Source of the DNA: Natronobacterium gregoryi SP2
GTDB taxonomy: Archaea > Halobacteriota > Halobacteria > Halobacteriales > Natrialbaceae
Length of the DNA stretch: 64,000 bases
Assembly (NCBI RefSeq): GCF_000230715.2
Contig: NC_019792.1
Location: 1,054,001 to 1,118,000 of the forward strand
Reading direction: 5' to 3'
A model generated the notes under the pieces. It had not been told where the DNA came from, did no database searches, and saw nothing but the letters and a program-made list of their open reading frames with translations. Position numbers and translations under genes: made by a program. This document shows, in pieces, positions 234 through 7,067 of the stretch. Numbering within the stretch: the first letter of the stretch is position 1; every line of letters starts with the position of its first letter.

Positions 234-902
234 TTAGTCGCCTCCGTGGTCGAGGATCACGTTCAAGAGTTTCGTCTGTGCAGCCGCGAGGTGTTCGGTG
301 AACGTAGTGCTCGTAATATCGAGTTCGTCGGCGACTTCGCCTGCATTCGCTCTCTTTGGGTGCTCGAAGTAGCCCATCCGGTGGGCTGTCTCGAGCACCT
401 CGAGTTGCCGTGCGGTCAGCGTGCTCCGGTCGACGAAGACGAGGTTCTGTTCGGAGTGATCTTGCTGGGACTGGAGGAGTCGCTGGACGTCGATCGTCTC
501 ACACTGGCGTTGCAGTTCGCTGATGATCGCCTGGAGCGTCTGCATGTCGGGTGTGTGGAAAGTAATGAAAAGCGACTCCTCTGTCGCACGGACGTCGACG
601 ACCGGACAGTCGAATTCTTCGACGATTTCGCAGGGACAGCCCCGACCGAGCTCGCGACCGAACCGGTAGCTGGAACTCGAGCCGTAGGAGAAAATTTCCG
701 TCAGCTCGATGTCGTCGACGCTCGGCTCGGCACTGGGATCGTCGGGTTCTAGAAGGAACTCCTCAGTAACGCGGTCTGGTGCGCCGGGATCGACGCTTTT
801 CGAGACCGAAAGAACGGTTCCACTGGCGTCGGCAGCCGCGTCCGCGACGACACAAGAGGGAGGATCGTCGATCTTGATTTCGGCGCGGATACCCGAAGTC
901 AT
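234..902 (-). CDS. Bat-type HTH_10 transcriptional regulator
   Basis: A 222-residue protein whose last ~55 residues form the bacterio-opsin-activator helix-turn-helix (HTH_10) domain: LTARQLEVLETAHRMGYFEHP, followed by the recognition-helix region with DELDITSTTFTEHL and a C-terminal helix. The N-terminal ~150 residues are the usual beta-rich domain found before HTH_10, with no PAS or GAF sensor, so it is a short stand-alone member. Family knowledge says such proteins are haloarchaeal transcription regulators; the ligand and targets here are unknown. It is followed on the same strand by the small zinc-ribbon gene at the left edge. The upstream 209 bp (903-1111) separates it from the divergent winged-helix gene and holds A/T-rich promoter-like sequence. 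Confidence 0.85.
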   Translation of the reverse strand: MTSGIRAEIKIDDPPSCVVADAAADASGTVLSVSKSVDPGAPDRVTEEFLLEPDDPSAEPSVDDIELTEIFSYGSSSSYRFGRELGRGCPCEIVEEFDCPVVDVRATEESLFITFHTPDMQTLQAIISELQRQCETIDVQRLLQSQQDHSEQNLVFVDRSTLTARQLEVLETAHRMGYFEHPKRANAGEVADELDITSTTFTEHLAAAQTKLLNVILDHGGD

Positions 903-2528: not shown

Positions 2529-4454
2529 TCAGTCGTCGCCGGGAGCCGCCGCAGCGCCGTCGCTACTGACGCCCGTCCCGGGACCGATTTCGATTTCGAG
2601 TGCCTCGAGTTTCTCGTCCGGGACGACGCCGTCGACCCAGCCGCGGTAGTCGTAGTACTCGGCTTTCATCTCCTCGAGTTCGCAGTACTCGCCGTCACTT
2701 GCACCTTGCCCGGGGACGCCATCCTCGAGGAACCGCTCGGGGAGCGAGTCGTCGTCGCCGTCGAAGCCGACGAGGTTGTTGTAGTATCGCTCGAGGTTGT
2801 AGACGCGTTCGCCGGCTTCCATCAGTTCCTCTTCGGTGACGTCGAGACCCGTCATGCCGTTGTATTGCATGACGTACTCCTCGATGCCTTCTGCAAAGGC
2901 ATTGAACTTGCAGATGTCGAAGGAATCGCTGATGGCGTGGAGATCCTGGAACTCCGCAGTCAGTTCGCCTTTGCCTTCCCACGCGTATGGATCGACTTTC
3001 TCGGGGATGCCGAGAATTTCAGCAGCAGGGGTGTAGCCACGGAGGTGACAGGCACCGCGGTTCGAAGTCGCGTAGCCGATTCCCATCCCTTTCATGCAGC
3101 GTGGGTCGTAGGCGGCGATCGTCTGGCCCTTGACCGCAAGGGAGTTGTCGTGGGCTCCGACCTCGTCGGCGACGCGGCGAGCGCCCTCTGCCAGCAGGTC
3201 GGCAAGCTCGCCGTCGCGGTGGGCGATCCTCTCGATCATCTCGATCATCGTTTCGGTATCGCCCCAGTCGAGCCCGTCCTCGAGTTTGCCCTCCTCGGTC
3301 ATCTCCATGGCCATCGCCATCATGTTGCCCGTGTCGATGGTATCGAGGCCCATGTCGTTACAGCGGTCGAGCATTACCGCGATGTCGTCGCGTTCGGTGT
3401 GACCGGAGTTCGGCCCGAGCGCGTACGCCGATTCGAACTCGTAGGACTCCGTTCGAACGTTCATCTCCTCGCCTTTGTGCATCGCCTGGACTTCGACTTC
3501 CTTCTTACAGGCAACCGGACAGGAGTGACATGTCGGCTCGTCGACGAGGATGTTCTCCCGGACGTTCTCGCCACTGATCCGCTCGGAATCGAACTCGTCG
3601 TCGGCGAACCCATCCTCGCGGGCGTCCTCCGTCGAGGTGTACTTTCCGTTACGGGTCGGGAGACCGGACATCTCCTCGGTGAGGTTCATCAGAACGTTCG
3701 TCCCGAACTGCGAGAGTCCGCCCTCGTTTGGTGCAGTGACGTCGGATTCCTGGATCGCCTGCATCGCCTGCTGGTGGCCCTCCTTGAACGTCTCGGGATC
3801 GGCCGGCTGGGGCATTTTCGTACTCGATTTGACGACAATCGCCTTGAGGTTCTTCGAGCCCATCACACAGCCCGTTCCGCCACGGCCCGAGGCACGGTCG
3901 TCTTCGTTGATGATACAGGCGTAGCGAACCTCGTTCTCGCCGCCGGGACCGATCCCCATGAAGCTCAAATTCTTGCCGTAAGAGCCGTCGACTTCTTCCT
4001 CGAGTCGCTCTCGCGTCTCGTGGACGCCTTTCCCCCAGAGGTCGGAGGCGTCCCGAAGTTCGATGTCGCCGTCCTCGACGACGGCGTAGACGGGGTCGTC
4101 GGCTTCACCTTCGAACAGCAGACCGTCGAAGCCGGCCCACTTCAATCGTGCACCCGACCAGCCACCGTGGTGGCTGTCGGTGACGGTGCCCGTAAGTGGT
4201 GACTTCGTACAGACCGCGATCCGGCCGCTCATAGTTACCTGAGTCCCGGACAGCGGGCCGTTCATGAACGCGAGCAGGTTGTCCGGTCCAAGCGGGTCCA
4301 CGTCTGGCCCCTGTTCGAACACGTACTTTACCCCGAGCCCCCGTGCACCGATGTATTTTTTCGCGTCGTCCTCGTCGATCGACTCGTAATCGATTACCCC
4401 CTCTGAGAGGTCGATGCGAGCGACATTGTCCTGGAAACCGCCGAGTTCTGTCAT
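2529..4454 (-). CDS. aor: Tungsten-containing aldehyde:ferredoxin oxidoreductase
   Basis: A 641-residue protein covering all three domains of the AOR family. The N-terminal domain has GARGLGVKYVF and the pterin-binding stretch GPLSGTQVTMSGR. The [4Fe-4S] cysteines appear as CHSCPVAC near residues 308-316 and the distant DICKF near residue 513. The family oxidises aldehydes to carboxylic acids with a tungsto-bispterin cofactor and passes electrons to ferredoxin in the cytoplasm; the particular substrate cannot be read from the sequence. Length is close to the family norm (~605-640), with a short acidic, Ala-rich C-terminal tail. There is no obvious ferredoxin or cofactor-insertion gene adjacent, so it appears monocistronic. 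The start follows an A/T-rich promoter region at about 4480-4510. Confidence 0.93.
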   Translation of the reverse strand: MTELGGFQDNVARIDLSEGVIDYESIDEDDAKKYIGARGLGVKYVFEQGPDVDPLGPDNLLAFMNGPLSGTQVTMSGRIAVCTKSPLTGTVTDSHHGGWSGARLKWAGFDGLLFEGEADDPVYAVVEDGDIELRDASDLWGKGVHETRERLEEEVDGSYGKNLSFMGIGPGGENEVRYACIINEDDRASGRGGTGCVMGSKNLKAIVVKSSTKMPQPADPETFKEGHQQAMQAIQESDVTAPNEGGLSQFGTNVLMNLTEEMSGLPTRNGKYTSTEDAREDGFADDEFDSERISGENVRENILVDEPTCHSCPVACKKEVEVQAMHKGEEMNVRTESYEFESAYALGPNSGHTERDDIAVMLDRCNDMGLDTIDTGNMMAMAMEMTEEGKLEDGLDWGDTETMIEMIERIAHRDGELADLLAEGARRVADEVGAHDNSLAVKGQTIAAYDPRCMKGMGIGYATSNRGACHLRGYTPAAEILGIPEKVDPYAWEGKGELTAEFQDLHAISDSFDICKFNAFAEGIEEYVMQYNGMTGLDVTEEELMEAGERVYNLERYYNNLVGFDGDDDSLPERFLEDGVPGQGASDGEYCELEEMKAEYYDYRGWVDGVVPDEKLEALEIEIGPGTGVSSDGAAAAPGDD

Positions 4455-4639: not shown

Positions 4640-4825
4640 TCACAGTAACAACGCAACGATCGCCAGAACGATAAAGACCAACACGAAGATTCGAGCGATT
4701 TCCATCGAGATACCAGCGACGCCGCGTGCGCCGACAGCTGCCGCGATAACTGCCAGAACGAAGAACACGACCGCCCAGTACAAGAAGCCGTCACCGGTCT
4801 GTAACGGAGACGCGAACTCGAGCAT
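4640..4825 (-). CDS. DUF1328-type small membrane protein
   Basis: A 61-residue protein with two hydrophobic helices: WAVVFFVLAVIAAAVG, then a GVAGISMEIARI loop and FVLVFIVLAIVALLL. The G-AGxxxxIA loop between two helices is the signature of the DUF1328 (YtjA-like) family of tiny membrane proteins. The function is unknown; in bacteria relatives are often stress-induced. It ends in the hydrophobic second helix with no tail. It sits between the AOR gene and the LOV regulator, on the same strand as both, with gaps of about 105 and 185 bp, so it probably has its own transcript. Confidence 0.8.
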   Translation of the reverse strand: MLEFASPLQTGDGFLYWAVVFFVLAVIAAAVGARGVAGISMEIARIFVLVFIVLAIVALLL

Positions 4826-4930: not shown

Positions 4931-6781
4931 TCACCCGTCTTCGAAAAAGGCACGACAGAGTTTCGCCTCGGCCGATCGCAGGTGCTCGTGGAACGTCGGC
5001 CGCGAGACGTCCATCGACTGGGCGAGTTCCTCGCCGGTCGTCGGTCGCGGCCACTCGAAGTAGCCGCCGAGATAGGCCCGCTGTAGTGCGGCGAACTGGC
5101 GGTCGGTGAGATCACTCTCGAGAACGGCGGCGAACTCTTGTCGGCTTCGACCGTCCCGATCCCGTTGTTGGAACGAACGAACGTCGGTCCGGTCGTACCG
5201 GTCTTCGGCGGCCTCAACGATCGAACGGACGTTCGCCGACCGCGGAATCTCGAGGGTCAGGACGGCGCGTCCGTCTTCGGCTTCGATCGCTTTCGTTCGG
5301 ACACCACGCTCCGAGAGCCAGGCGACGGGGTCGGCCTCGCCGGCAAGCTCTGCAAGACACCTCTCGTCGCGGTCGACGACTACCCGGCAGTCGACGTCGT
5401 CTCTGGCCGCGGCCGCGTCGGTGAGTTCGTCGACGTCGCCAATCACGGTAAACAGCGACGATGTCTCCGACCCCGATCCCGAACGGTGAACGGATCGGCG
5501 GTACTCGAACCGACAGTCCGTGTCGGCCGCAAGCGCGGCGGGAGCGACGGCCTCGTCTTCGATCTCGAGGTCGACGGCGACGACGGCGTCGGTCTCGAGG
5601 ACACGGCTGGTTTCGCGCGCGTTGACGCCGCTTGCGACGGCACGAGCCAGTGCAGAGAGAACGATCGACTCTCGGTCGTCGACCTCGCGGTCGCCATCGA
5701 CGTGAACGGTCAACACGCCGTACTCGATGTCGTTGTAGAAGAGTGGGAACGCGGCCAACGTCGTCCCGCCGGCGGTGTCGACGGCGACAGCCTCGTTCGG
5801 GAGCGTCACCGCGGCTGGATGGCCGGCGTCGGTCGAGATCGGGTCGGGCGAGACACCCGCACTCGTCTTGATCTCGATCATTCCTGTCGCCGGGTTCCGT
5901 TCGCCGATCCACGCCCCCTCGTAGGCGTCTTCCGAAGCGATCCGATCACAGACTGCCGTCTCGAGTTCCGAACGATCGGTCGAGCCGGCGACCGCGGCGG
6001 TGACATCTTGGACGAGTCCCTCGACGCGATCGAGGATGTACTCGAGTTCCTCGGTTCGGCGCTCGAGGGCAAGTTCGGCCTCCTTGCGCGCGGTGATATC
6101 GTTCTGGAAGCCGACGTAGTTGGTGACCTCGCCCTCGTCGTTGCGGACGGGTGCGATCGTCACCTCGTTCCAGAACTCGGTGCCGTCTTTCCGGTAGTTC
6201 TTGATCTCGACAGTGACCGGGTAGTCCTCGTCGACCGCAGCCGCCATCTCGGCGATCGTCTCCTCGTCGGAGTCGGGACCCTGGAGGAGCCGACAGTTGC
6301 GGCCGACGACGTCGTCGTAGCTGTAGCCGGTGATCTCCCTGTAGGCGTCGTTGATGTAGACAAGCGGGTTGTCCTCGCGGTCGGGGTCGGAGATCGTGAT
6401 CCCGACGGGTGCCTCGTTGATCGCCCGCTCTTTGACAACCCGGTCGTCTGTTGGCTCGAGCCCGATATTCGACCGGAAAACGATAGTCGTGCCGTCGTCG
6501 TCGCGGTGGACGCGCGCATCGTAAGGAGTCCTCTCGAGTTCGATTCCCCGAGCCGTCCCGACGGTCGTCTGGTCGATCGCCGACTGGAGGACCGACCACT
6601 CATCTAGCACGGTCCCTGGCTCGACCGGCACGTCCGGAACGCCGAGTGTCTGGCGTGCCGCCTCGTTTGCGTACGTAATTTGGCCGTCGGCAACGGCGAC
6701 GACGGGATCGACGAGGTGCTCGAGCGCAGCCCTCGAAGGAGAAACGCCCTCCTCTACGGACTCCGCATCGATATCACTCAT
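4931..6781 (-). CDS. PAS-LOV-GAF-HTH_10 (Bat-like) putative photoreceptor regulator
   Basis: A 616-residue protein from the ATG at 6781; an upstream in-frame ATG at 6835 would add 18 residues lacking acidic character. Order: PAS (residues ~20-110), a second PAS/LOV domain (~120-235), a coiled linker, a GAF domain (~255-395), the Bat-associated beta domain (~400-540) and HTH_10 (~560-612, LTDRQFAALQRAYLGGYFEWP). The second PAS has the LOV signature GRNCRLLQGPDSDEE with the photo-active Cys near residue 161, then NYRKDGTEFWNE and NYVGFQND, which supply the Asn and Gln that contact flavin in LOV proteins. This suggests blue-light or redox control of transcription, similar in layout to the bacterio-opsin activator Bat. 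The flavin binding and targets are inferred. No opsin gene is visible in the window. Confidence 0.88.
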   Translation of the reverse strand: MSDIDAESVEEGVSPSRAALEHLVDPVVAVADGQITYANEAARQTLGVPDVPVEPGTVLDEWSVLQSAIDQTTVGTARGIELERTPYDARVHRDDDGTTIVFRSNIGLEPTDDRVVKERAINEAPVGITISDPDREDNPLVYINDAYREITGYSYDDVVGRNCRLLQGPDSDEETIAEMAAAVDEDYPVTVEIKNYRKDGTEFWNEVTIAPVRNDEGEVTNYVGFQNDITARKEAELALERRTEELEYILDRVEGLVQDVTAAVAGSTDRSELETAVCDRIASEDAYEGAWIGERNPATGMIEIKTSAGVSPDPISTDAGHPAAVTLPNEAVAVDTAGGTTLAAFPLFYNDIEYGVLTVHVDGDREVDDRESIVLSALARAVASGVNARETSRVLETDAVVAVDLEIEDEAVAPAALAADTDCRFEYRRSVHRSGSGSETSSLFTVIGDVDELTDAAAARDDVDCRVVVDRDERCLAELAGEADPVAWLSERGVRTKAIEAEDGRAVLTLEIPRSANVRSIVEAAEDRYDRTDVRSFQQRDRDGRSRQEFAAVLESDLTDRQFAALQRAYLGGYFEWPRPTTGEELAQSMDVSRPTFHEHLRSAEAKLCRAFFEDG

Positions 6782-6872
6782 GTGCCTCCATAGGAAGGCC
6801 GCGACAAAGAACCATGGTGGTCCGTGCGACGCCACCCCGAACGTTATTACTCTTTACGTTGTATGGTAACGC

Positions 6873-7067
6873 ATGGCACCACACAGTTCACCGTTCGCCC
6901 GGCTTCGGGAAAAGTTCGAGGAGCCAGACCTCGAGTGCCGACAGTGTGGGTATCTCGCTTCCAACAGCGAATGGCACGTAGAGACGACGGGGGGTCGCGT
7001 CCAGTACCAGTTCGTCTGCCCAGTCTGTGAGGCAGCCGAGGTCCGAGAGGTTCGCCTGAAGGAGTGA
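6873..7067 (+). CDS. Small zinc-finger protein
   Basis: A 64-residue protein with a CRQCGY pair near residues 22-27 and a CPVCEA pair near residues 49-53, spaced as a zinc ribbon, with an amphipathic N-terminus (FARLREKFEEP). It belongs to the general group of haloarchaeal one-domain zinc-finger proteins; the function is unknown. It is divergent from the LOV regulator (91-bp gap, A/T-rich at 6843-6865), so a shared promoter region is likely. The following 274 bp (7068-7341) contain no gene but include a half-copy of the dispersed repeat (about 7130-7185) and an A/T-rich promoter-like stretch with the palindrome CGTGTACACG near 7277. Confidence 0.75.
   Translation: MAPHSSPFARLREKFEEPDLECRQCGYLASNSEWHVETTGGRVQYQFVCPVCEAAEVREVRLKE

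Follow-up and report, generated by a model that had tools for sequence, protein, structure and literature searches.

EL222 and the aureochromes are LOV transcription factors, and LOV domains feed into a STAS domain in YtvA, a LuxR-type HTH in EL222 and a bZIP in aureochrome 1. By sequence, YtvA, EL222 and aureochrome 1 share a LOV domain with the protein described here, and none of the three has its BAT/HTH_10 output. This protein is encoded in a 64,000-nucleotide stretch of the Natronobacterium gregoryi SP2 genome (NC_019792.1, positions 1,054,001–1,118,000; hereafter the window).

A census with a tree has reported 167 archaeal LOV proteins, with an HTH in about 30% of the halobacterial ones and one arrangement that is Bat-like; its available text gives none of the halobacterial LOV–HTH proteins as tested at that date, and describes Halobacterium salinarum Bat as lacking the reactive Cys (Losi 2014, PMC4844311). 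Because both LOV–HTH and Bat-like arrangements were reported there, the window protein belongs to an already published kind, its class being that of the LOV + PAS/GAF + HTH proteins. The orthologue group, gene neighbourhood and dyad described below do not appear in the accessible portion of that work (PMC4844311).

Bat itself is known through the Halorubrum BAT-LOV* domain, which, in the published sections available, binds flavin and is photoreduced almost a hundredfold more slowly than VVD-III; Trp172Phe on top of two Tyr-to-Phe changes restores photoreduction, and P188C alone gives no adduct (Yee 2015, PMC4682037). On the evidence of the same sections, the Trp was called unconserved and a Cys-less ancestor was thought possible, the comparison there being among Cys-less LOV proteins of varied architectures. 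Bat and BAT-LOV* resemble the window protein in their LOV-like fold, flavin Asn/Gln set, GAF domain and HTH output (PMC4682037). Bat, however, starts with a REC domain, carries Pro at the position of the Cys and a Trp close to the flavin, and has a LOV domain that is poorly photoreduced (PMC4682037), whereas the window protein has a PAS domain instead of REC, Cys163, Tyr147 and no opsin link.

The closest experimental case is ALovD-1 from Lake Diamante, a canonical haloarchaeal LOV protein with Tyr30 and Cys46 16 residues apart, which is reported to bind FMN and to photocycle in salt concentrations up to 3 M (Valle 2025, PMC12202551, available text). Unlike the LOV domain studied here, that of ALovD-1 belongs to a histidine kinase, where it is the middle one of three PAS domains, and not to a transcription factor (PMC12202551). 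A search of the open-licence literature found no archaeal Cys-bearing LOV transcription factor with an experimental test; such proteins are common in Halobacteria. The N. gregoryi protein and its orthologues offer a clean case, with a full LOV residue set, a conserved neighbourhood, a candidate operator and a Cys-less opsin-linked paralogue in the same cell.

Domain organization of the N. gregoryi LOV regulator

Translation of the minus strand gave a single open reading frame of 616 aa, with its ATG at 6781 and its stop ending at 4931, exactly as placed by the initial annotation, a reading of the DNA letters that had described a LOV-type PAS domain inside a Bat-like regulator. The frame remains open beyond this ATG as far as a GTG at 6835, and relatives share the ATG start. 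Matches to PAS_9 (residues 125–231), BAT and HTH_10 were all far over the Pfam cut-off; GAF_2 scored 15.6 bits against a cut-off of 28.6, leaving GAF without a Pfam call. The ending given in the initial annotation as "GAF and HTH_10" is therefore right for HTH_10, and for GAF holds as a GAF-like fold in the model and not by Pfam; the BAT domain between the two and the weak PAS domain N-terminal of LOV had been passed over. The order PAS–LOV–(GAF-like)–BAT–HTH_10 fits the (RR/GAF/PAS)+LOV+nPAS+kGAF+HTH architecture in the available text of Losi 2014 (PMC4844311).

Table 1. Features of the regulator gene and its surroundings, in window coordinates. Neighbour counts refer to 45 named orthologue loci, and certain of their contigs end early.
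Feature	Position	Strand	Basis
LOV–BAT–HTH_10 transcription regulator, 616 aa	4931..6781	-	ORF, translation, Pfam, AlphaFold2
Weak N-terminal PAS, residues 15–108	6458..6739	-	PAS_8 stretch 17–60; strand/helix pattern in model
LOV domain, residues 112–230	6092..6448	-	PAS_9 E 2.7e-26; best PDB matches are LOV photoreceptors
Cys163 codon TGT, expected flavin-adduct residue	6293..6295	-	Translation, orthologue conservation
Long helix behind LOV, residues 231–266 (putative signal helix)	5984..6091	-	Helix 230–266 in model
GAF-like domain, residues 269–396	5594..5977	-	Alpha/beta fold in model; Pfam GAF below cut-off
BAT domain PF15915, residues 398–551	5129..5590	-	Pfam E 1.8e-35
HTH_10 DNA-binding domain PF04967, residues 558–609	4955..5110	-	Pfam E 1.4e-19
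61-aa DUF1328 membrane protein, next gene downstream	4640..4825	-	PF07043 E 9.6e-11; 42/45 loci
Aldehyde ferredoxin oxidoreductase (AFOR), second gene downstream	2529..4454	-	AFOR_C + AFOR_N; 32/45 loci
64-aa zinc-ribbon-like protein, divergent neighbour	6873..7067	+	39/45 loci; Pfam below cut-off
Inverted repeat CCTNCNTANGNAGG, possible operator	6785..6798		4–17 nt upstream of ATG

An AlphaFold2 model of the 616-aa protein, computed from 83 aligned rows, had a mean pLDDT of 90.1, with most ten-residue blocks of the LOV domain at 92–98; the pTM of 0.60 is low, so the placement of one domain against another is not to be read from it. The adduct motif GxNCRxLQ is present as GRNCRLLQG (residues 160–168), and all three LOV peptides quoted in the initial annotation, covering the Cys (Cys163) and NYVGFQND, are found in the protein. 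The flavin-contact set comprises Asn162, Arg164, Gln167, Asn195, Asn205 and Gln226, with Cys163 as the adduct residue. In a phmmer search of the PDB, YtvA (E 7.4e-33) and a Meiothermus LOV protein (E 1.4e-32) were recovered; among the best 60 matches listed, E values ran from 7e-33 to 3e-24, and nearly all of these are LOV proteins by name or by known identity. The initial annotation had suggested modelling the domain on LOV structures as a check; the predicted domain superposed on the solved Meiothermus LOV domain with a Z of 22.4 and an rmsd of 1.0 Å over 138 residues at 41% identity (VIA-align, top match). Together, sequence and model support the reading of a complete LOV domain joined to BAT/HTH_10 as its output. 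A chance motif is ruled out by the Pfam matches, the PDB sequence matches and the superposition.

Conservation and distribution of the flavin pocket

Searching 391 sampled genomes of the class, we found a match at 1e-70 or better in 226 and a clear orthologue (at least 56% identity) in 76, all within the window's own family, of which the sample held, by hand count, about 101 genomes. Among the sampled genomes the orthologue group is thus confined to part of one haloarchaeal family, which counts against the explanation that we favour below. The nearest named relatives are in Halobiforma nitratireducens (78%) and H. haloterrestris (77%). The 172 loci with a match of at least 200 bits yielded 149 distinct sequences in addition to the window protein.

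Cys163, Asn162, Arg164, Gln167, Asn195, Asn205 and Gln226 are kept in all 73 distinct orthologues (at least 54% identity, the window protein counted). Replacement of the Cys in close relatives, the sequence half of the refuting test set out in the initial annotation, was thus not seen, and with the residue set intact in 73 of 73 an isolated degenerate gene is ruled out. Across 68 near-full-length orthologues, mean pairwise identity was 0.78 in the LOV domain, 0.80 in the helix at residues 231–268 and 0.87 in the HTH at residues 546–614; the PAS, GAF-like and BAT parts ranged from 0.57 to 0.67, with PAS the lowest at 0.57. In the same 68 sequences, position 147, which lies 16 residues before Cys163 and is Tyr in the window protein, is Tyr in 62 and Phe in 6. 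The Tyr is compatible with function, because ALovD-1 photocycles with the same Tyr.

The residue 17 positions after the Cys varies. It is Ala180 in the window protein, Ala in 44 and Arg in 29 of the 73 orthologues, Arg in 55 of 66 other Cys relatives, and Ala, Ser or Gly in 44 of 52 Bat-group members. We take an Arg here to be the second flavin-phosphate contact of LOV domains (as in YtvA and AsLOV2) and Arg164 to be the first of the two. Since Ala180 replaces this second phosphate Arg, the affinity of the window LOV domain for flavin (FMN) may be low. Halorubrum BAT-LOV* carried only modest amounts of flavin when made in E. coli, according to the available text of Yee 2015 (PMC4682037).

Probable cysteine loss and its Trp partner in opsin-linked Bats

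The N. gregoryi genome holds three stretches strongly similar to this LOV domain, the gene of the window protein being the first of them. A second (L033:6599-11152, minus strand) encodes a 1517-aa protein with a Cys-LOV motif, GRNCRFLQG, and a C-terminus matching the window BAT/HTH half; judged from these features it is a probable second LOV transcription factor of the genome. The third (L032:9817-11805, minus strand, near 2.954 Mb) encodes a REC–PAS–GAF–BAT–HTH_10 protein with the motif GRNPRILQG, and so Pro at the adduct position. Its gene is separated by 4.9 kb from one for a Bac_rhodopsin protein, presumably halorhodopsin-like, and has a lycopene-cyclase-like gene nearby. This product is the opsin-linked Bat of N. 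gregoryi; the window protein is 42% identical to it over residues 101–614.

With the opsin-linked Bat as query, we obtained 52 matches with E values of 1e-120 or lower across the 391 genomes. The adduct position is Pro in 46, Cys in 5 and Ala in 1, and all 52 retain the two Asn and the Gln. The 46 Pro-type Bats divide into 34 within 10 kb of an opsin gene, 6 at 21–43 kb and 6 without an opsin gene on the contig, and all 5 Cys-type Bats lie within 10 kb, lower-ranked opsin matches judged to be distant or on other contigs having been omitted from these distances. The initial annotation had called the window protein a blue-light-responsive transcription factor, and the complete LOV domain and BAT/HTH_10 output behind that call are borne out; its argument through Bat is misleading, because Pro replaces the Cys in the Bat of N. 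gregoryi itself and in 46 of the 52 Bats overall, and H. salinarum Bat lacks the Cys.

Loss of the Cys goes together with a Trp 16 residues upstream. This Trp is present in all 47 Cys-less Bats (46 Pro and 1 Ala), whereas the 5 Cys-type Bats have Tyr (3) or Phe (2) there. In a tree set of 112 rows, each of the 85 Cys rows carries Tyr or Phe at the position. A second search added 30 loci, 26 with Cys and 4 with His, and in these the residue is Tyr or Phe and never Trp. The P188–Trp172 spacing of BAT-LOV* is likewise 16, equal to that in the sampled Bats, by the numbering in the available text of Yee 2015 (PMC4682037). These counts are not independent events, because the Pro forms need a single origin on the tree.

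A first tree was built from one orthologue in four, one Bat in three and the full set of more distant relatives, leaving out L236 and L246; it was inferred with the Cys column masked and rooted at the midpoint. In it the Ala row groups with the 25 Pro rows (SH-aLRT 99), inside an opsin-linked clade of 32 rows (SH-aLRT 100) of which the remaining 6 are Cys rows. Five of these 6 were measured beside an opsin gene (L114 being the same as L243), and L120 lies outside that measurement. The window protein falls outside the clade. The first tree alone gives no direction of change, because the Cys rows and one His row share one side of the branch. A second tree used the C-terminal half of about half of the first-tree rows and was rooted on eight paralogues from the window's own genome. 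Here the opsin-linked clade (13 Pro/Ala and 6 Cys, 19 rows) is nested among Cys rows (SH-aLRT 99), with both the window protein and the root outside it; the branch to the Pro/Ala rows has an SH-aLRT of 46, and one outgroup row, OG_L003, falls inside the ingroup. The simplest reading of these sequences is that the Cys was lost once, within the Bat clade, where its absence looks derived.

By analogy with the published Bat biochemistry, Pro together with Trp would make a poorly photoreducible redox sensor. The opsin regulator of N. gregoryi seems to have abandoned LOV photochemistry, which the window protein seems to keep. We tentatively propose, as a call falling slightly short of even, a split of light and redox sensing among paralogues: Bat would have arisen from a Cys-LOV photoreceptor by a single linked pair of changes, Cys to Pro and, beside the flavin, Tyr/Phe to Trp, that left it poorly responsive to light and made it a flavin redox sensor, with window-type LOV regulators retaining the blue-light channel. 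If true, this would revise the published idea of a Cys-less BAT as an ancestral redox sensor, as well as the idea that Trp172 is untypical and that BAT photoreduces well in nature. Our search of the open-licence literature on Bat and LOV found neither the Pro/Trp coupling nor the direction of Cys loss. With this pair of paralogues it becomes directly testable which route light takes to the opsin genes, Bat itself or other LOV regulators.

In five loci (L256, L260, L266, L272 and L139) the adduct residue is replaced by His (GxNHRFLQG), with Phe lying 16 residues upstream; these are distinct from the Pro/Trp Bats.

Proposed function and alternative explanations

In our view the window protein is likely to be a one-component transcription factor that responds to blue light. 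Its LOV domain would bind flavin, and blue light would be expected to form an adduct between Cys163 and flavin C4a. Gln226 could then pass the signal on to the beta sheet and the helix at 231–266, altering the arrangement of the GAF–BAT–HTH_10 half and with it, we infer, DNA binding. A probable target is its own promoter, via the dyad near the start codon, so that the regulator is possibly autoregulated; the adjacent DUF1328 gene may be a further target.

An unlikely alternative is that the protein is a flavin redox or oxygen sensor in which the LOV Cys is kept incidentally. Its signal would be reduction of the flavin to the neutral semiquinone or hydroquinone, as proposed for BAT-LOV*, and Cys-less LOV proteins can signal through flavin reduction, as described in the available text of Yee 2015 (PMC4682037). 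The BAT/HTH_10 output common to the window protein and Bat would suit such a role, as would the conserved AFOR neighbour (32 of 45 loci, certain contigs ending early). AFOR is an oxygen-sensitive type of enzyme. Against this, Cys163 is lost in none of the 73 distinct orthologues although the wider family has a Cys-less branch, and the Trp that accompanies Cys loss is absent, position 147 being Tyr or Phe in all 68 sequences compared.

That the protein serves as a second opsin or retinal regulator, functionally a Bat, strikes us as very improbable. The GAF-like/BAT/HTH_10 half that it shares with the opsin-linked Bat of its own genome, and its 42% identity to that protein, point that way, but, with opsin distances measured as above, none of 76 orthologues lies within 30 kb of an opsin gene (4 are at 32–53 kb), 19 of the 76 host genomes lack a Bac_rhodopsin match, and N. 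gregoryi already has a REC-containing Bat 4.9 kb from its opsin gene. We give just as little credence to a decayed photoreceptor, in which the LOV letters are kept, no flavin is bound in vivo and the PAS or GAF-like domain is the real input. Ala180, standing where a second phosphate Arg is expected, could be a trace of such decay; however, invariant columns are far denser in the LOV domain (39 of 119) than in the PAS (6 of 94) or GAF-like domain (16 of 128) of the 68 orthologues.

Candidate operator and gene neighbourhood

The dyad CCTNCNTANGNAGG was scanned for in 44 of the 45 named orthologue loci (L104 omitted). It occurs within 60 nt of the start codon with at most one mismatch in 14 of the 44, exactly in 7 of these, and has no such match near the start in the other 30; elsewhere in the 44 loci there were no exact and 8 one-mismatch matches. 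A genome-wide search gave one exact site for the dyad and two per strand for a reversed control pattern. Because the control matched more often, uniqueness of the dyad is uninformative and its position alone counts. We regard it, from its position, as a reasonable candidate for an autoregulation site, and not more, since 30 of the 44 loci lack it. A sigma-70-style promoter scan, of a type unsuited to archaea, gave no result.

Among the papers listed by a literature search on DUF1328 or haloarchaea, none dealt with this family. The DUF1328 gene beside the regulator (minus strand) is one of two DUF1328 copies in the genome. About 4 kb from the regulator gene, the window also encodes a small second HTH_10-type regulator (234–902, minus strand), whose HTH end matched the window protein and which was found in 23 of 44 neighbourhoods compared.
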